Shown: piece by piece, positions 13,291 through 24,400 of the stretch
Numbering within the stretch: the first letter of the stretch is position 1
How the letters are laid out: each line of letters begins with the position of its first letter
Assembly (NCBI GenBank): GCA_009602725.1
Contig: WELB01000159.1
Coordinates: 1 to 41,295 of the forward strand
Source of the DNA: Spirogloea muscicola
Lineage: Eukaryota; Streptophyta; Zygnematophyceae; Spirogloeales; Spirogloeaceae
Length of the DNA stretch: 41,295 nt
Direction: 5' to 3'
Position numbers and translations under genes: made by a program
Notes under the pieces: generated by a model
What the model saw: the letters and a program-made list of their open reading frames with translations, nothing else
The model's database searches: none
What the model was told of the DNA's origin: nothing

Positions 13291-14164
13291 TCGATACACG
13301 CTCCATCCCTCTGCTGCTCTGCCCGTCATCGCTGCGATTGAGGATGCGCGCTCCCGCCACGACCTCTCGTTACCCCCCCCCCACTGCCCCTGCACGTGCT
13401 CCTTAAGCCTCACACCTTCGGCAGGTGCCAGACTTGCTGAGCAGGCGTCGACACAAGTGCATGCGTTACTCCCGGACGCTGCAGCGCTGGGCCTTGAGGG
13501 CACGCCAGTGAGCACACGATACTCCAGAAGGCGAGCAGCTGCTCTGAAACTCTTCTGTTATCGGTGGACCACTCTTTGTATCGTGTGCCTTGCTAATGAT
13601 TACCTTTTCTCTTGCTCCATCTAGACTCGACGCATCGCACACTCTTTTGTGCTCAACATTGACTGCCTCTGACCCCTTCCTTAAAGTGAGCACCTTCTGA
13701 TGCATCCACCAGCATGATTGGTGAGCAGTCATACAATATAGTCTTGCTCAGATAAGTTTGTATAGATGAAGCACTTCTAAAGTTGGTGATGCATGCAGCA
13801 GCTTCTTTGACATGCTGAGTAGCATCTTTCAGATCACGTGCTCAAAAGAACACTGCATCTAGATACACACATATGTATGATCAGTCTAGCATCGATGTTG
13901 GTTTTTGATGGGCGCGTGTGCTGCCCTCCTTTAAGGGTGCCCGACATGTGTAGCTACCGGAGGGGTACTGTGACCAACTTGCCAGCAGCCAGACCTCCTC
14001 AAGCAAGCGTTTATTGAGTGTCTATTCTGACCGGCAACTCTGGCTCTCACCTCTTGTTGTGCAGTGATATCCGCCTGGCTCGCAGTCACTCCTCTCGCGA
14101 GAGGGATGGAGGCCCAGCCCATCGGGGCACTGTTCGCTTCTCCTTGCACAACACGCCCTCGGTG

Positions 14165-14400
14165 CCTTACTTCTCTTTAAGAGAAGTGGCTCTCCCAATG
14201 GGGACAAAGCCTGTGAGAAGCCAGCCCGAAAAGAATTGACAAGGTTCAAAGGGGCCAAAATACGAAGGGGCCAAAAGCGCTAGCTCTTCGAGAGGGATCC
14301 TGCACGGCCTTCTTTTTTGGGCTGGCTTGGCCAGCCCCTCTTTTCTATGGGCGCGCTTTCCTCACTTCGAGAGGGATCCTGCACGGCCTTGTGCCTTTGT
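14165..14400. repeat. Stem-loop repeat copies in both orientations
   Basis: A minus-oriented copy at about 14180-14280 carries AAGTGGCTCTCCCAATGGGG, the stem and then AATTGACAAGGTTCAAAGGG. A plus copy has GGGCTGG and CCAGCCC near 14319-14337. The 19-nt GAGAGGGATCCTGCACGGC occurs twice, near 14289 and 14369, flanking the plus copy as a direct repeat. Confidence 0.75.
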
Positions 14401-15035
14401 CGTTGGCCTCGTGTCGTCATGCGAGCGCGATGGGCGGTCATAAACCAGCTCTTCCAACTTAAGGCGACAATGGTTGGTGAAAGACGATGAAGTGTGAGCG
14501 CCCTTCCACGCTCGGGGATGCGTGGCAAGTCGCCAAGAAGCCACGGCAATGTTCGCGGAAGTAGGGTGGAATGAAGCTGCAAAGAATTTGGCGCGACTTA
14601 CTCTGAGGCAGCCTGCGGGCCGCCGCTTCAGGGGGTGCGTCACATGACGGCTGACGACGCCAGGCTCGGTGCGCGACGGCGCGTGAGGCGGTGTGCTTCG
14701 TGACGTGAGCGAGGCTCGGGACGCGCCACGCGCCGTCGCTACGCGACAAGAGGCATGCTGGGCCGCGCGCCGACGGGCGCCTGCTGCGGTTACCTGGCGG
14801 CGGCCGGGCGCACGACGCCCGGCGTCGCGTCGCGACACGGGGCCGGGACCGGGTCGCGACACTCCCTTGGTGGCGGCAAGCGGGGTGGCCAGGGACCACT
14901 GCGCGCCGAGGGCCAGGCTGTCGCGCCGGAGTAGGGGGGCGCGTGGCGGCCAGCGCCCGGGCAGCTGGCCGCTGCCCGCGCCACAAACGTTTCCTGACGG
15001 GCAGGAGGGTGGGAGAGGCCGAAAGGGGGCCGGGG

Positions 15036-15718
15036 NNNNNNNNNNNNNNNNNNNNNNNNNNNNNNNNNNNNNNNNNNNNNNNNNNNNNNNNNNNNNNNNN
15101 NNNNNNNNNNNNNNNNNNNNNNNNNNNNNNNNNNNNNNNNNNNNNNNNNNNNNNNNNNNNNNNNNNNNNNNNNNNNNNNNNNNNNNNNNNNNNNNNNNNN
15201 NNNNNNNNNNNNNNNNNNNNNNNNNNNNNNNNNNNNNNNNNNNNNNNNNNNNNNNNNNNNNNNNNNNNNNNNNNNNNNNNNNNNNNNNNNNNNNNNNNNN
15301 NNNNNNNNNNNNNNNNNNNNNNNNNNNNNNNNNNNNNNNNNNNNNNNNNNNNNNNNNNNNNNNNNNNNNNNNNNNNNNNNNNNNNNNNNNNNNNNNNNNN
15401 NNNNNNNNNNNNNNNNNNNNNNNNNNNNNNNNNNNNNNNNNNNNNNNNNNNNNNNNNNNNNNNNNNNNNNNNNNNNNNNNNNNNNNNNNNNNNNNNNNNN
15501 NNNNNNNNNNNNNNNNNNNNNNNNNNNNNNNNNNNNNNNNNNNNNNNNNNNNNNNNNNNNNNNNNNNNNNNNNNNNNNNNNNNNNNNNNNNNNNNNNNNN
15601 NNNNNNNNNNNNNNNNNNNNNNNNNNNNNNNNNNNNNNNNNNNNNNNNNNNNNNNNNNNNNNNNNNNNNNNNNNNNNNNNNNNNNNNNNNNNNNNNNNNN
15701 NNNNNNNNNNNNNNNNNN
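15036..15718. other. Assembly gap, 683 undetermined bases
   Basis: The bases are N. The gap is flanked by very GC-rich sequence (14640-15035 upstream, GGC triplets downstream), which probably caused the sequencing failure. The 5' part of the gene at 15719-18132 is lost here. Confidence 0.99.
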
Positions 15719-18132
15719 CGGCGGCGGCGGACGAGGCGGCGGTGGCGGCGGCGGCGACGGCGATGGCGGCGGCGCAGCCAGCGACCTGATGGCCACTTTG
15801 GACGCATCGTTCCTGGCCCGGGCTGCCGCTGCCGCCTGCGCTGCCGGCAACGACTCCGCCGCTGCGGCGGCAACGCATGCTGTCCCTGCCACCTTCCAGC
15901 AGCAGCTGCCGCTGGCGCTGCCGGAGGCCGACGGCGCTGCAGCGGCAGCGGCTAGGGAGGAGAGCATGGACTGGCAGCCGACGAGCGGCGGCGAGGAGGG
16001 GGGAAAAGTGGGGACAAGCCAGGCCATGGCCGCCGATGGCGACCTCTACGCCTTGTCTGGCGCACTGCTTGGCGAGCGGGCGCTGCCGCTGGCGGCCTTC
16101 GCTGCCAGAGGCCTGGACGGCGACACCGCCGTGCCTGCGCCTGCGGTGGCAATGAGCCCCGACAGCTCGGGCTCCTTGTACTGGGCGCCGCGAGGCTTGC
16201 TGGACGGCGGCTCCGCGATGCCGCTCGGGCAGTACTTGCAGGAGGCTGCCGCAGCGTCGCCACTGGCCTTCGGTGCCGGCGAGCTCGTGGACATGGGCGG
16301 CTTGGACGACCCTGGCCACAATCACGGCAGCAGCTTTGGGCTCGGCACAGCGGCCGAGCTCGGGGACTTTGCGCTGCTCGGCGGCGGCAGCGTGCGTGCC
16401 GCCGATGTGCTGAGCATGGCTGACCTCGCCAGCTTGGGCCTGGACTTTGGATGCGGCGGGGATGGCGCCAATGGTGGCGGCAGCCTGGGCGCTGGCTTTG
16501 GCTGCAGCATTCAAGCGCTGGCATCGGAGTCGGCGCTGGCAGACGACTCCATGCCATCCATGGCGCACCTGTGGCGGAGCGCCTCCATGCCCGCGACCTT
16601 GCTTGGCGGCAACAGCAGCGAATATCACGACCCTGCTGGCAAGCTCCTCCTGGCAGGCCTGCGCACAGCCGGCGGTGGCAGCGAGGGCCTGAGCGGCGAC
16701 CTCAATGGCGAACTCGCCAGCCAAATGTTCAGCCAGATGGCGATTGCTGCCAGCGGCGGCGCTGGTCAGGGCGAAGCCGCTGCTGCCGCTGTCGTCGCTG
16801 CTGCCGCCACCGCGGCGGCGGATCCCCTGCGCATGCTGGAGCTGGGCGGCAGCTATGCTGCACGCGACGCGATGGACGACCAATTGGGAAGCAGCGCTGC
16901 GGCGGTCGTCACGGCAGCTGCCAAGCTGCAGGCGCAGCTCGGGTTTGCGCCGGGCACCCCAGAGCAGCAGCTACACCAAGCCATGGGCGGCGGCGGCGGC
17001 GGCGGCCCGCTGATGCGCCCTGCGCAGCTGCTTATTCCGGACAACACTGAGCCGGCAGCGCTCCCCTTGGCACCAGGTGCGGTGGCTGCCTCCCCCGCCT
17101 CCCTCCTCTCGGCCCTCCTTCCCTCCCTCCTCCCTTGCCCTCGACTACCAGCATTGGGCATGCTTGATCTGAGCGCTGGCCAGGCCAATCCAACTGACTG
17201 CGCCGCTCGCGCCCTCGAAGCAGGCCTGCTGCAACGTGCGTCGAGCTGCACGGCGCTGGACCGGGCGCTGGATATTCTCGGCGGAGCATCGCCGTCGATG
17301 GCCAGTGGCAGCCACTGCGACCTTCGCTTCTTCTCACCGCACCCGGCCGAGGCCCGCCTGGGTCCTGACTCTGCCGACGTCCGGTTCTACTCGCCGCAGG
17401 CCGACTCGTCGCGCAAGCGTCGAGCCGAGAAGCAGTGGCCTGCTGGTAGCGAAGCCCCTGGTGGCACTAGCGCGTTGCCACCGCCCGGCGCTCGGTCGCC
17501 CGCGCACCTGCGCACCATGTCGTCCGCAGACCGGGCCATGGTGCTGGCCGATGCCCTTGTGCTGCCGAGCAGTGGGCGGCTGCCCAGCCTCCCCCCTCCG
17601 GCGCCCGTCTGGCGGTCCCCCGGCGCGCCAACGACAGGCACTGCAGATGGCGTGGTGCCCTCGCCTGCTGTCAGTGCTGGCGGCATGTCGCCTCAATCTT
17701 CCCCGCCGTTACAGCCTGGGAGCAAGCCGGCAGGAGTTTCGGCACCATCCCCTCGCCGTAGTCGCAACAGGTCAGCGCAGCGCTCACCGCACTGTCTAAT
17801 TTGGTCATCCACCCCGTTGGTTGATTACCAAAAAGTGTCTCGTCCTCTTATCATGTGTTGCTGTAGCTCGTCAAGCATGCACATTAGCTCAGATATGAGG
17901 AGATGCAGCCTAGCAGTTTGGTGTCAAGGAGTGTGTGTAGTGGTGCACAGTCTGACCCCGTCCCCTTTCCTCTGCTTCCGCTTGCCTTTGCAGCCGCTCG
18001 CGCTCCACCTCGCAGCAGCGCACCGGCTATGTGAAGCTCTTACCGAAGCCACCCGAGCCAGCGGCTGCTGCCGCTGCTGCCGTCGCTACCCGCACGGGGT
18101 TATGTGGCAGCCCTGATAGCCCTGCATCATGA
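15719..18132 (+). CDS. Unrecognised Ala/Gly-rich protein, partial (N-terminus in gap)
   Basis: I do not recognise the family. One frame leaves the gap and stays open for about 683 codons to a donor at 17770. An intron at 17771-17993 then joins exactly in phase to a final exon 17994-18132, which ends in TGA and adds about 45 residues. The visible part is about 729 aa. It is rich in Ala and Gly with alternating short hydrophobic segments, a Gly run near 16987, the paired motifs DLRFFSPHP and DVRFYSPQAD near 17320-17405, and a basic patch SSRKRRAEKQ near 17407-17436. A second basic patch SRNSRSRS spans the splice. The basic patches suggest a nuclear protein, perhaps a transcriptional regulator whose DNA-binding domain lies in the gap; that is inference. 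A 75-nt stretch at 17077-17151 looks like an optional intron. The long opposite-strand frame is taken as a shadow of the GC bias. Confidence 0.65.
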
Positions 18133-18764
18133 GACATTATCGCACACCCGGCGACGCACTCTGTGCAGACACTGAAAGCGACTGGCGACACAATGTACTC
18201 TACCACCGCCCCGCTGCAGCACTGTACTGGAGCAGCTACTGGCAGGCCACAGACTCATAAAGAGGGCAGCAGAGTTCTTAGGAATTAGTGGCATATGCAC
18301 ACTCAAGGCATGGCGACAAGATACAGCCTTCACTGCCACTCTGCCTCTAACCCTGCCTAAACCTGGGTCGCACGTTTGCCAAGGTCGATGCTATCACTGC
18401 CTTCAAACACTAGCCTGGCCAGAGCAGGCAAGCAAGGTGGATGCAGACCTTGCACGCGGCAGCCAAGTGCCCCCAGCTGCGAGGGGCCTGAGAATAACCC
18501 TTGCAAATAAGGTCGCATTGGTGCGACAGGTTGTTGCCCGTGTTGATACAATCTCAGCATCTGCTACTGCAATGCTCAGTATTGATGATCAGCTCCTTGA
18601 CAATTTGCCGCTCCGTGACAAAGTACCCATGCAAGTCCATGTGATAAAGGCTTGTGTCAAACGGCTGTAGTTCTAGCGGCATAGGCTGTTGATTCATATT
18701 TGCAAAGACGTTGCAATCATTGTGTACAATAAACACGGGTTCATAGGAGGTAAGCCAAATTGGT

Positions 18765-18769
18765 TGTAA
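18765..18769 (+). terminator. Candidate poly(A) signal TGTAA of the upstream plus-strand gene
   Basis: TGTAA lies about 635 bp after the stop at 18132. Just downstream, the opposite-strand signal of the convergent gene is at 18802-18806. Confidence 0.4.
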
Positions 18770-18801
18770 CAAAAAAGTGCCCTCCCAACATGTGCTACAG
18801 C

Positions 18802-18806
18802 TTACA
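18802..18806 (-). terminator. Poly(A) signal TGTAA of the acyl-activating enzyme gene
   Basis: TGTAA on the minus strand lies 74 bp after the stop codon at 18880-18882, a usual distance for green-algal messages. Confidence 0.6.
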
Positions 18807-18879
18807 AGTATGCATGTTTGCATGCTGTCTCCTGCGCCTGCATCCAGCCCAAGTGGCAGGCAGCCGGACCGCTAGGCAG

Positions 18880-21800
18880 TCACAGCCTGCTCTGGGTTGG
18901 CAATTTGCCAAGGTGCCTGACTGGGTCTCTCAGAATAAATTTTTGTATCTTGCCTGTGGAAGTCTTCGGCAGCTCTCCAAACATGACTGACTTGGGAACC
19001 TTGTAATGAGCCATGTGGGCACGGCAAAAGTTAATCAGCTCCGTAGCTAAAGCCTCTTGAAAAACGGCAGGAGACATTGGGCTCCTACTTTCGGCATTAT
19101 GGCAGTCTTTGAGGGCGATAAATGCGCAGGGGGTCTCGCCCCAGATGTCATCTGGCCTGGCGACAACGGCAACCTCCAGGACTGCAGGGTGCTTATACAA
19201 CACGCTCTCCACCTGAAAGAGCATGGGATGCTGATTAAAGTGGCAAAGCTTGAGTTATTGCGCGCTATCCTTGCCAGTGACTGGCTTGAGTTCAATGGCA
19301 GCCTGCATCATGAGATCATCAGTCTGCTGAATGGAGTAGGTCTTGTGGACAACCTCCAAGCTGCTGATGTTCTCCCCTCCTGAGATTATGATGTCTTTGC
19401 TCCTGTCCATAATCTCCACGTAACCGTCGGGGTGCATGACAGCCAGGTCACCAGAGTGTAACCACCCTCCCTGGCAGTCATCAATGCAGTACGGAAATGA
19501 GATATAGCATTCAATCACTATCATAATCACCTCGCCTGAGCAGGATTGCTAGCTGACAGATTTTGACAATTTTGTTAATGGTTGAGCTTCGAAAGTTACA
19601 AAAACCATTAATTTAATTTTCGCCGCTGCAGCAGACCTATCTCAACCGGGCCAGGCTGCTAACAACAAGTGTGGCATCACTAGAGTCAGCAGTGCAGTGA
19701 CTGATAGTAAGTTAGTCAATGTGGTCATGGGCTTCAACCTTCATGGCCTCCCTAGTAGCACTCTCGTTCTTGAGGTAGCCCTTCATGGTCACGTTGCCCC
19801 GCAGCATTATTTCCCCAATAGACTCACCATCGGCTGGCACGGGCTGCATAGTCTCTGCATCCATCACCTCCATACGAAACTGGCCAAGATGGCACACGCC
19901 CTGCAGCATGAACGAGGTCAAAGATACAGCAGACAGATCAGCAGACCGCCCTCGAATCGAGTTCTTGGATGAATAAGCCAACTGTCATCTCCGTCTAAAG
20001 TGCTTGCAAGTTGGTACTCTTGACTTAGATAGCTGAATCAGGACAAGCTTAAATGTCCAGGGGAAGACCAGATGTGTCCCACATTGAGGAAAGGAGGCAC
20101 TCGAAGATGATGCCGCAACTAAGATGCCTCAAGGAAAGAGCATGGAAGCCATTAGCCAAGGACCTGGCGAGCCTTGAGTCTTCCTCGCTCCCCTGCAGGG
20201 AGGGGGTCCCACTCATCTTTCCAGACGCACATGACGCAAGGCCCGTATGTCTCTGTCAAGCCATACGCGTGCAGAATATGGAATCCTATCTCTTCAACTC
20301 TGCGGATGACTTCCGAGGGAGGAGCTGCCCCCGCTGTCATGACCTCCACTGCACCGTGCATCCGCCCCCGATCCACAACCCTCGCATTTGCGAGCATGTT
20401 GAGCACAACTGCCGAACAAAAAGGATGCGGACAAGGTTACTGGCGCGTGAGGGCGAGCAGTCGTGGCTCCTGCAGCTGACCTGACGAGCTTTCAGCTGCG
20501 CTTGCCGATCAGGCGGCAAGGCATCCCACTCTGGCTTCCAGACGCAGACGCTGGCCGGCCCCAAAGTTTCCGTCAGGCCATACGCATGCGTGACGCAGAA
20601 GTCGGCAGCTTCCATCCTGGTGAGTATGGCGGGTGACGGAGGAGCCCCCCCAATGAGGACATCCACTTGCTTGCACAGTTTGCCAGAGCCCGAAAGGGCG
20701 CTGGCCAGCATGTTGAGCACAACTGTTCACAAGCCACCACTACTCTGTATCACCACCCGCCACCCCATCCTGCTGTTTGTTGCTTACTCTCAATTGCCTG
20801 GTCTCTCCAGACTGACTATATGTACTCTACACGGTCACTCCAGATGTGTCGCAAATGAAGCTGATGCTCAACGGCTGTACTACAAGATGAGAAGCCTTCT
20901 CATCTGAGTCCTGTAATATAGCTTTTCAAGTTCTTGCACAAGGACGCCAGGTTACCAACTTCAAAGAAGCATCATACTTGGGGTGAATGCAATGAAAGCA
21001 TCGAAATATCATACCTACCTGGAGCTCCGCAGAAGTGCGTAACTCTGTGCTGTGCAATGGCTGCAAGACGTACAGAACGGACACGTGGGAGTGCTTTGTC
21101 AGATGTGATGAGGTGCAATGCTACGGTCTCTGTGAAAGTCACCGCCTGTGGCAACTTACAGGCCACGGGCCACTGCTAGCTTGACAAAATGCTGCCTCTT
21201 CCAAGACCCAACTTGTACACAATGCTCAGGCACATGTCAGCTAAGACCCATATGGCAAAATATGACCAACAACAATGGAGGCCCTTTACCTGCGTATACG
21301 TTTTCGGCAGTGACATTGCGGAGGCAGATGTTGGTGCCAGCCAGCGCCGCGAGGGTCCATGGGAAGCACCATCCATTGCAGTGGAACATGGGCAGCGTCC
21401 ACAAGTACACAGCGCCAACCCTCATCTCCCAGCTGAGGGCGTTGGCCAGAGCGTTCAGGTAAGCCCCCCGGTGGTGGTACACAACGCCCTTTGGGGTTGA
21501 CGTTGTACCTGACGTGTAATTCAAAGCAATTGCCTGCCACTCGTCATCCGGGAGTTTCCAGGCATACTCCTGATCCCCTTCTTCAAGGAAGGCCTCATAC
21601 TCCGTGTGTGATGCGCTTAACTGGTCGTCCTCTTGACAACCACCGGCGACATCCTTGTCCTGGATGACCACAATCGGAGGCCATCGTTGGCAGTCCTGTT
21701 TTGTCAGTCATAGGCAGGACCCTGTCAGCAAGCCACTTACCCAGCGCATTCACCCTACTGGTCCATGTGCATGCCAAGATTGTATAAGAACCTCCTCTCT

Positions 21801-22952
21801 TTTTCTGGGCTAGAGGATGCGTGCAGAATTGCATAATGCTTGAAGACTTCTTAAGCCTCAGACAATCCCCAGCAGCACGTTGCCAGGCTTAGACAGGACT
21901 ACTCAGTCAGCAAGATGTGCAGGCTCATACATAAAGACGCCCAAAGCATAGAGGTGATAGCGATTGGTAAGTGGTTCGACAAGCACGTGTCAACTAATGT
22001 ATCAAAGTATGCATTGCTGGCGAGCATTTCTGCCACCCTGGGCCGTCATCAACCTTGGAGAGCAATTGCAGCGCATCCGCGACGAGCTTGAGGAAGCAGG
22101 AGTCTACAAATATCAGCTTCGCTTCTCCGTGGTCCAGGATGTGGGCAATGGTGGGAGAGTCAAGACGGAGGTTGATGGCGTTAAGCACCGCCCCCGCCAT
22201 TGGCACTCCAAAGTGCGCCTCGTACAGAGCTGGGATGTTAGGAGCAATTAAAGCCACCTGTCACTTGCGGCAACTCTGTCAGATATGCATCTCTTGTGCT
22301 GAATATGAGCAACTTCAAGCAGGCAAGTGGGAAGGGCCAGCAAGCAGACACAATCTATCAACAAGCCTGGCTACCTAAATGAGCGAGCAACTGGCTGCGC
22401 CGCCCCATCGAGTGCTGGGTGCGGAAGGCAGCGCAGGCTCGACGTCACATGCAGTAAGCGCGTCCTTCCCTTCTACATCTGCTGCTGCCTGAACTCCTCA
22501 AACCGTCTGCTCCGCTGGGTGCTCGAGACGCGTTGTCCTCAAAGTGGGGCCAGTGCAGACCCCGAGCAGCAGCAACTGAGCTTGCTGATGCACACTGGCG
22601 GACCAGCTTCGATACCCTTAGTGCGAGCGCCTGGGCATGGTGGGGAACAAGAGAGGACCCGACAAGGGCAGCAAGGCGGCTAGGAGGTCACCGTGTGCCC
22701 GTCGCCGACGCCGCGGCGGCGCAGCGCGGAGGCCATGCGGCGGGCGCGCGCGAGCTCGTCGGCCCAGGTGAGGACGCGCGAGCCGTGGACGACTGCCGGC
22801 CGCGTCGGGAAGACGCGCGCCGCTCGCTCCAGGAAGGCCAGCGGCGACAGCGCGACGTGGTTGGCGGCCGACCTCGCCAGCCCGGCCTCGTACATGCCGC
22901 CGCCCGCCGCCGCTGCCTCTGCCGTCGCCTGAGGCTGACGAGCTTCCGCCAT
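18880..22952 (-). CDS. Peroxisomal AMP-forming acyl-activating enzyme (AAE7-like), with duplicated exon 5
   Basis: This is a member of the ANL/AMP-binding superfamily that activates a carboxylic acid with ATP and CoA. Closest by motif to plant AAE7/ACN1, a peroxisomal acetate-type acyl-CoA synthetase. Exons in transcript order: 22952-22692, 22257-22054, 21695-21290, 21060-21019, then either 20722-20481 (5a) or 20408-20164 (5b), then 19900-19739, 19470-19354 and 19212-18880. All borders are GT..AG and phases agree, giving 588 aa (5a) or 589 aa (5b). Motifs: P-loop [10 protein letters not shown] (216-225), [17 protein letters not shown] in exon 5, [25 protein letters not shown], and the C-terminal [11 protein letters not shown] with the catalytic Lys. 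The last three residues are SRL, a type 1 peroxisomal signal, as in AAE7. The start is the Met at 22952; a downstream Met at 22895 is possible. True substrate is not known from sequence. Confidence 0.93.
20164..20408 (-). other. Alternative exon 5b of the acyl-activating enzyme
   Basis: This 245-nt exon has the same start and end phases as 5a and lies 72 nt downstream of it. It encodes [15 protein letters not shown], then [29 protein letters not shown] and DEWDPLPA, ending LKARQ before a GTCCTT donor. About half of the aligned residues match 5a by eye. TAGAAPP and TETYGP are the plant-like forms. It is intact with no stop. Confidence 0.9.
20481..20722 (-). other. Alternative exon 5a of the acyl-activating enzyme
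   Basis: This 242-nt exon completes a codon with its first two bases and ends on a full codon (LKARQ then GT). It encodes [14 protein letters not shown], then [28 protein letters not shown] and PEWDALPP. Acceptor is GTGAACAG and donor GTCAGC. Compared with 5b it has IGGAPP for TAGAAPP and Leu for Tyr after TET. It is intact with no stop. Confidence 0.9.
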
Positions 22953-23039
22953 CGCTGCGCAGGCGGCGGCGAGCTGCAGGCGGGCCTGGCAACGTCGAGC
23001 TGAGGGACCGCGTGTGCGCGCGCCACGGCTGCTGTTTGT

Positions 23040-23470
23040 CAGGAGGCGGCAATAGAAGCCACCCAAGTGCACACATCAGGGAATGTAAATTGCGTCTAGC
23101 CACACTGAAGGAATGGGGTGTGTATTGAGTGCTGGTGGGCCTGAGGGGCCCAGTACAAAGGCAAGCACATTGACATAGATACACCAGCTGCTACTAAGCT
23201 AGACCCGCTCAGAAACCACGAGCCATATATCAGTGTGCTGGGAGCGCACTAGGCTCCCTGTCAACCGACTTGCGGCGCGGTGCTCCAGCACCCCAGATCA
23301 GACCGGCAGACACGTTTGTGCTCACTTGTGGATACCAGAGTCCCACTTGAGTTGTATCTATCATATTGTTACCTTAGCCCGTCTTAGATTCTTTGTTCTC
23401 GTGCCAAAGAGCGGACTGGCTTGCTTTGACCTCCCTCTCAATTCATGCACGCCGCGCGCATCTACCATAT
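23040..23470 (+). repeat. LINE 3'-tail remnants
   Basis: Stretches match the LINE 3' flank: GCTCACTTGTGGATACCAG near 23318, TTACCTTAGCCC near 23370 and TCAATTCATGCACGCCGCGC near 23440. No protein-coding part remains. 22953-23040 is the likely 5' leader of the minus-strand gene. Confidence 0.6.
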
Positions 23471-23629
23471 GCAGAGCCGCAGGCACGCAGTCAGGGCCGA
23501 TTCAGTATACCCGTGTCAGCTACTTGGGAAACAGATGAGCTGGGGGGAGCAGAGGAACCCCGCTGTGCAAGCAAGAGGCTGCTGCAAGGGCGCGACCGGC
23601 ATAGTGTTGCATATCAAGCAATTGGGACC

Positions 23630-24400
23630 TGTGTTCAACTTTTGTGGGCTGGCTTTATCACAGCCCGCGCTCCCTCTGAAAAGCTGCTTCTTCTGGAAGG
23701 CTTCGAAGCCCTTGGCCCCTCTGCAAGAGCCACTTCCTTTCTGGAGGACCATGGAGGGCCTGCCTCGGTATGACTATAGACCCGAGGTTATGGAGCCTCC
23801 AGGCAATTCTATTCCCTGCCCGCTTTGCCGCTGGTCAGCTTGACAGGCCATCAGCAAAAGTAGCAAGGACACCGACACCTGTTACATCTGTGGCTGTCCA
23901 TAACCCAGCAGGTAGGACTTACGGCCAGCATCGTATTCTCTGTAACTTTACGACTTTGTTTTTGCTTGACCACCTTCACATGTAAGAAGAGCTTCGCCTT
24001 GCAGGGGGCGCTAGGGGCACAGAGAGCCCCGGCATGAGCGAGGAGAAGCCTCAACAAGACGAAGGAACTCTTTGAAAGGGAGCGATGGTTGTGAAAGGCC
24101 AGCCCAAAAAGAAGAAGTGGCTCTCCCAATGGGGGCAAGGGCTGTGAGAAGCCAGCCCGAAAAGAATTGACAAGGTTCGAAGGGGCCAAACTACGAGCTA
24201 AGCAACGACTGCGGGGCCTGAAGAGGCTAAAAAGAAGGGCACGAAGACAAGACGAGCTGCATGAGCAAGGGGGGCGCCTCGCAGCCTGCCCAATCTTTCT
24301 GAGCCCACTCACAGCGACACAGCCTTCCGTGGAAGCTCAGATAATTTTGATCTTGTTTTATCAAGTCTCGGGCCAGTCCCTCCAGCCCCTTCGCTTTTGC
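23630..24400. repeat. Stem-loop repeat cluster
   Basis: A plus copy lies near 23647-23670 (GGGCTGGCTTTATCACAGCC). Minus copies lie near 24085-24105 and 24120-24240; the latter is long and runs through AATTGACAAGGTTCGAAGGG to GCGGGGCCTGAAGAGGC, almost the mirror of 11620-11760. Bases 24400-25350 contain no gene that I can support; 24890-24920 has a short AGCAGATAGC tandem. Confidence 0.75.

Follow-up and report, generated by a model that had tools for sequence, protein, structure and literature searches.

Two alternative versions of a pocket-region exon in a probably peroxisomal acyl-activating enzyme gene of Spirogloea muscicola

The gene, its exon 5 pair and the encoded enzyme

In the window analysed here, a stretch of 41,295 nucleotides of Spirogloea muscicola contig WELB01000159.1, the minus strand carries a gene of nine exons, two of which are alternative versions of exon 5. 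These versions, termed 5a and 5b, are adjacent homologous exons with matching phases, and every other exon of the gene is single. Their coordinates, the lengths of 242 and 245 nt, the 72-nt spacer, the phases and the single state of the other exons had been given in an original prediction from this DNA, and all agreed when recomputed. The features of the gene are:

22692..22952, minus strand: exon 1, 261 nt, with the start codon; spliced reading frame open in three copies of the gene
22054..22257, minus strand: exon 2, 204 nt; from the spliced reading frame and the three-copy comparison
21290..21695, minus strand: exon 3, 406 nt, encoding what we take to be the P-loop, and LPMFHCNGW
21019..21060, minus strand: exon 4, 42 nt, ending in THFCGAP
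20481..20722, minus strand: alternative exon 5a, 242 nt; pN/pS 0.32, intact in three copies
20649..20651, minus strand: Gly codon of IGGAPP in 5a; Ala in 5b and in 63/65 bacterial relatives
20562..20564, minus strand: Leu codon after YGLTET in 5a; Phe in the C1 copy, Leu in the C70 copy
20409..20480, minus strand: spacer between 5a and 5b, 72 nt; no indels in three copies, 5/72 columns variable
20447..20451, minus strand: branch-point-like CTCAC in the spacer, A at spacer nucleotide 33 (20448); in three copies
20436..20439, minus strand: branch-point-like TAAC in the spacer, A at spacer nucleotide 44 (20437); in three copies
20164..20408, minus strand: alternative exon 5b, 245 nt; pN/pS 0.235, intact in three copies
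20337..20339, minus strand: TGA in frame when 5a and 5b are joined, from translation of the double-inclusion product
20332..20334, minus strand: Ala codon of TAGAAPP in 5b, at the same position as the Gly of IGGAPP in 5a
20245..20247, minus strand: Tyr codon after YGLTET in 5b; Tyr also in 65/65 bacterial relatives
19739..19900, minus strand: exon 6, 162 nt; from the spliced reading frame and the three-copy comparison
19354..19470, minus strand: exon 7, 117 nt; from the spliced reading frame and the three-copy comparison
18880..19212, minus strand: exon 8, 333 nt, with SRL codons at 18891-18883 and then the stop; SRL in all three copies

Use of 5a alone gives isoform A of 588 amino acids and use of 5b alone gives isoform B of 589, each with one terminal stop and ending in SRL. 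When both exons are spliced in, translation stops at the TGA at 20339-20337, and when both are skipped the frame shifts to an early stop, which bears out the earlier claim that only one-of-two gives protein. The two versions share 41/81 aligned residues. In a genome search the 81-residue 5a peptide matched 5b of the window at E 3e-19, far above chance, and singly the 5a and 5b peptides matched PF00501 with 30.8 and 33.2 bits against a cut-off of 29.9. Although their synonymous divergence is near saturation, 5a (20707-20722) and 5b (20393-20408) begin with the same 16 nt; the run reaches 17 nt when the exon 4 base common to both is included (P 0.02 by codon permutation), possibly a shared splicing element or a gene-conversion patch.

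Both isoforms lie far above the family cut-off of NF006020 (PRK08162 acyl-CoA synthetase), with 834.5 bits for A and 848.9 for B against 677. The closest kinds are presumably plant peroxisomal acyl-activating enzymes of the BZO1/CNL kind. The P-loop and the terminal TGK, which we take to be a signature motif of the family, are encoded by constant exons, and LPMFHCNGW of exon 3 aligned with VPMFHVNAW of the Thermus synthetase 1ULT, which we assume to be its gate segment. An SKL-like C-terminal tripeptide is present in the form of SRL in all three copies, presumably a PTS1-like signal, and from this ending the enzyme is very likely peroxisomal. Box II reads GEIMLRG, compared with the GEICIRG reported for 4-coumarate:CoA ligase (4CL) in the cited part of PMC5239791; judged by box II, the enzyme is not a typical 4CL. 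Bacterial and archaeal genomes gave 595 reported relatives, of which the best 80 were kept. Two relatives lay in viral contigs and are of bacterial type, because their matches run unbroken over at least 541 residues. The bacterial comparison used 65/82 loci, the other 17 being dropped for short matches or stops.

Three genomic copies and the age of the pair

In the 153-Mb genome the locus is present in three syntenic copies, on contigs C159 (the contig of the window), C1 and C70. The compared regions (window 14001-23900, C1:793001-802900 and C70:467001-476900, all from one assembly) were colinear for most of their 10 kb, with about 89% identity in the main blocks, and pairwise identity in introns and 3' flank was 81-96%. 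In all three copies both exons are free of stops and indels, every intron starts with GT and ends in AG, and the spacer measures exactly 72 nt. A search of the whole genome with the 5a peptide matched exactly six places, namely 5a and 5b of each copy, and found no third exon version and no separate gene copy of 5a; the next genome matches to the protein stood at 25-49% identity, with only the best candidates scored. Several chaperonin genes likewise occur in sets of two or three by our reading of profile matches, and together with the triplicated locus we read this as a triploid, a hybrid or a mixed assembly.

Other observations were made around the locus and in the genome. Over the 700 bases that precede the start codon (22953-23652), the C70 copy aligned at only about 60%, compared with 84% between C159 and C1, possibly reflecting promoter replacement in one copy. 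Genes for the RuBisCO small subunit gave two-part matches in the genome, and their contigs include ones of 0.8 and 1.5 Mb; intron-bearing nuclear genes would look like this, which would agree with the green lineage. The window also holds an open frame of 1057 codons on the plus strand (14943-18116) in a GC-rich stretch, without a Pfam match, which may be a chance frame; a Pfam scan of 10 of the 67 long open reading frames in the window gave no match.

Pooled across the three copies, pN/pS was 0.32 for 5a, the highest in the gene, 0.235 for 5b, 0.175 for exons 1-4 and 0.203 for exons 6-8. Replacement changes were fewer than in neutral simulations for both 5a (P 0.025, one-sided) and 5b (P 0.009), a modest effect, and single-pair values ranged from 0.13 to 0.66, a scatter due to small counts. 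The original prediction had named stops, or a dN/dS near 1, as what would speak against the pair; in the three diverged copies there were no stops and pN/pS was well below 1. Both exons thus appear to be kept by purifying selection. Synonymous divergence between 5a and 5b is near saturation (dS 1.4-1.8), as against 0.03-0.14 for the same exons between copies, which makes the exon pair far older than the three gene copies. In a tree of exon 5, one bacterial tip grouped with 5a and 5b (support 0.56); with that support, and a bacterial tip inside the group, it dates the duplication only loosely.

Fourfold-degenerate sites varied less in 5a and 5b together (9/87) than elsewhere in the gene (50/243; one-sided P 0.021). 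The spacer likewise had 5/72 variable columns, compared with 314/1888 in the other introns of the gene (one-sided P 0.015), where 43 of 1530 windows of 72 columns were as conserved. This low variation hints at splicing signals. The Leu/Phe variation of 5a at a position that is Tyr in 65/65 bacterial relatives could be relaxed constraint. Overall, judged by these sequence tests, the one-of-two exon pair is real and selected.

A spacer shorter than other introns

The 72-nt spacer is shorter than all 68 introns that we resolved in other genes, 33 of them in chaperonin (PF00118) genes, the shortest 90 nt, and 35 in kinesin (PF00225) genes, the shortest 93 nt. This sample represents two gene families, and homeologous copies are counted apart, so that its introns are not independent. 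It drew on 80/104 chaperonin and 64/95 kinesin matches, leaving out matches with stops, isolated matches and most matches on contigs not taken in; with more than one fitting GT-AG solution, we chose that closest to the profile estimate. A further 15 exon pairs (9 chaperonin, 6 kinesin) had no clean GT-AG solution, and their estimated intron lengths were 96 to 361 nt. Eleven matches with extra internal sequence were inspected separately, outside the 68. Two of them are homeologous chaperonin genes with 84 nt extra, L127 (C63:50878-51177) and L128 (C267:150350-150676), whose in-frame intron reads best as a GC-AG intron of 93 nt; GT-AG solutions of 72 and 81 nt also keep the frame open, but retain foreign residues. 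The 57-69 nt extra in kinesin matches are presumably coding loop insertions, not introns. In the acyl-activating enzyme gene itself, the other introns measure 140 nt or more.

In every copy the spacer has only two TNAY motifs, and their branch A would stand 33 and 44 nt from the donor, respectively. The human OGDH exons 4a and 4b likewise have a length-limited spacer; according to the cited part of the source, their branch points sit 25-41 nt from the donor, under a threshold of about 50 nt, and so enforce exclusion (PMC7969005). Those branch points were mapped by experiment, whereas the algal ones are motif-predicted. By these predicted positions, the 5a/5b layout is that of sterically enforced mutually exclusive exons. 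With a steric threshold borrowed from animals, it is moderately probable that the exclusion of 5a and 5b is enforced in this way.

The original prediction had described good splice sites. The 5a donor, GTCAGC, is indeed ordinary, at the 65th percentile among the 68 donors of other genes, but the sites are uneven: the 5b donor, GTCCTT, scored below all 68, as did the donors of introns 2, 6 and 7 of the same gene. The 20 nt at the acceptor contain 7-8 pyrimidines for 5a, 14-15 for 5b and 7-8 for intron 1 of the same gene. In the last nine positions before the AG triplet there are 4 for 5a and 6 for 5b, both within the range of the 68 other acceptors (mean 5.0). The pairing that looks most attractive is that of the 5a donor with the 5b acceptor, because the donor of 5a is stronger and the acceptor of 5b is richer in pyrimidines, and it is this pairing that the short spacer should block, as a matter of degree. 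In intron 4, the donor (21013-21018) reads GTAGGT in the window copy versus GTGATG in the other two, with a 6-nt length difference, and a 55-nt stretch upstream of 5a (20794-20848) is nearly invariant across the three copies, a candidate regulatory element.

A firm RNA-structure basis for exclusion did not emerge. Folding of the spacer was on a par with that of shuffled sequences (z +0.47), and its consensus fold held no covarying pairs. Of 10 duplex tests among five segments, only that of intron 4 against the spacer stood out, and only in the window copy, where the energy was -62.0 kcal/mol against a mean of -50.9 for shuffles (P 0.01); the other two copies came near that mean (-52.2 and -55.1), and the remaining nine tests gave P 0.30 or more. 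A helix between intron 4 and the spacer would loop out exon 5a, and we treat this pairing as a weak lead only.

Pocket differences, rival readings and known parallels

Mean identity to the 65 bacterial relatives was 43% for 5a, 51% for 5b and 60% for the rest of the protein. In columns with one residue in at least 80% of these relatives, 5a alone departed at 6, 5b alone at 2 and both at 3. The departures of 5a include Gly for Ala (63/65), Ser for Pro (65/65) and, in the three copies, Leu/Phe/Leu for the Tyr that all 65 bacterial members of NF006020/PRK08162 compared here carry; those of 5b are Leu for Thr (60/65) and Gly for Ala (62/65). YGLTET is kept in both exons. The pocket difference proposed earlier, TAGAAPP in 5b versus IGGAPP in 5a, was seen, and its sites match known acyl-pocket positions; the proposed Tyr versus Leu after TET stood in two copies, the C1 copy having Phe in 5a.

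By motif alignment, the Gly/Ala site of the two exons corresponds to Gly308 of Pp4CL1, and the Leu/Met two residues before it to Met306. The cited part of PMC5239791 lists Gly308 among the pocket residues of Pp4CL1 and reports that the M306A mutant was inactive on two of four substrates and less active on the others, and that A309G gave more activity on p-coumarate and less on the other substrates. At the site matching A309, Gly is present in both algal exons. For the superfamily, position 301 in 1AMU numbering (Gly315 of firefly luciferase) is described as important for substrate choice (PMC3098103, in the part cited), and by motif alignment we read this position as the Gly/Ala site of 5a and 5b. 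In a model of a bacterial relative (mean pLDDT 75.7, residues 326-334 in the loop after YGL under 50), which shows only the fold elements spanned, the exon-equivalent residues, about 276-357, comprise a helix, a short helix, a strand (296-301), a helix, a strand (318-324), a loop and a helix. From the residue differences, it is likely that isoforms A and B have a different acyl preference or rate.

These data suggest a model in which tandem duplication of exon 5 would have created two alternative pocket cassettes in one acyl-activating enzyme gene, probably peroxisomal. Splicing would run from exon 4 through 5a to exon 6, or from exon 4 through 5b to exon 6, and 5a-5b joining would be hindered, the 72-nt spacer leaving too little room for simultaneous use of its donor and branch point. 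Since double inclusion and double skipping give premature stops and 5a-5b joining would be hindered, only one-of-two mRNAs would make protein. The pocket strand (GAAP region) and the YGLTET loop would lie in the portion of the fold that each cassette supplies. Isoform B would have the more ancestral pocket and isoform A an altered one, so that the two would most probably act on different acids or differ in their rates on the same ones. As a whole, one-of-two pocket cassettes with short-spacer exclusion in a probably peroxisomal enzyme is, on balance, the best explanation and a fairly probable one, and we consider it highly probable that both the 5a and the 5b junctions are used.

An unlikely alternative accepts the switch and holds that A is weakly active or a regulatory subunit, for example in mixed dimers, with splicing setting activity, not substrate choice. 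It would fit the greater frequency with which 5a alone leaves conserved bacterial columns (6 versus 2, including Tyr to Leu/Phe and Pro to Ser) and the ACSL6 gate isoforms, reported to differ about tenfold in oleate activity and to form mixed complexes (PMC2868784, in the part cited). However, 5a keeps YGLTET, the other signature motifs lie in constant exons, and 5a is under purifying selection. That selection on both exons also argues against the pair mainly tuning expression, with common double inclusion or skipping leading to nonsense-mediated decay and one exon as the default coding form; a poison exon need not hold the coding frame, and the short spacer should disfavour double inclusion. 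Although both wrong combinations end in premature stops and the splice sites are uneven, we regard this reading as improbable.

It is still less probable that 5a (or 5b) is a decaying duplicate that is seldom spliced in. The lower bacterial identity of 5a (43%, versus 51% for 5b and 60% for the rest) and its pyrimidine-poor acceptor would agree with decay, but 5a is intact in three copies with GT and AG kept, has a pN/pS of 0.32 and is of near-saturated age. An assembly or gene-model artefact has next to no likelihood: the same structure stands on C159, C1 and C70, and we found no point in its support.

The segment of the algal enzyme equivalent to the gate, a label that we assume from alignment to 1ULT, sits in constant exon 3, unlike in the mammalian ACSL enzymes, which are also of a different subfamily and lineage. 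According to the cited parts of the sources, human ACSL1 and ACSL6 swap a 26-residue gate motif through a mutually exclusive exon pair (PMC1543647), and the F-gate form of ACSL6 produces oleoyl-CoA at about ten times the rate of the Y-gate form (PMC2868784). The likeness is that of an acyl-CoA synthetase with a segment of the substrate pocket or its entry exchanged by one-of-two exon splicing (PMC1543647, PMC2868784). In contrast to the 26-residue gate, the algal swap covers 81-82 residues further downstream, with the GAAP strand and the YGLTET loop, and whereas ACSL forms without both exons are reported as products in the parts cited (PMC1543647, PMC2868784), double skipping in the alga shifts the frame. 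The algal pair looks independent of the mammalian switch and uses another part of the pocket.

In a green alga, the cited part of PMC4378016 describes two neighbouring 106-nt mutually exclusive exons in Volvox carteri cyn23, verified by RT-PCR; like 5a and 5b these are neighbouring one-of-two exons, but cyn23 encodes a cyclophilin-related protein, not a metabolic enzyme, with isoforms differing at 13 positions. The earlier statement that such exons are rare in green organisms was uncontradicted, but has this verified green-algal pair beside it (PMC4378016, in the part cited). Two further algal splicing papers name the mutually exclusive class in the parts cited (PMC12702839, PMC7534427). Among the open-literature matches listed, which represent their sources in part, none described a comparable exon pair in an acyl-activating enzyme of a plant or alga.

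In its most specific form, our reading is that one peroxisomal gene may give two enzymes with different acyl pockets through a one-of-two cassette of 81/82 residues, enforced by a spacer below the size of a usable intron, which keeps the better 5a donor from joining the better 5b acceptor; it would be an independent counterpart of the ACSL gate switch, exchanging the GAAP/YGxTE half, and older than the split of the copies. For this full statement we see the case as evenly poised. If true, it would be a non-animal case of splicing that chooses the properties of an enzyme rather than its abundance. Size-enforced mutual exclusion would then work in green algae, where intron retention predominates over exon skipping: in Volvox, retention is the commonest form of alternative splicing at 46.5%, compared with 9.5% for exon skipping, in the cited part of PMC4378016. 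A natural pair of pocket cassettes in an otherwise identical enzyme would also be a convenient test of which GAAP/YGxTE residues set acyl choice in adenylate-forming enzymes.
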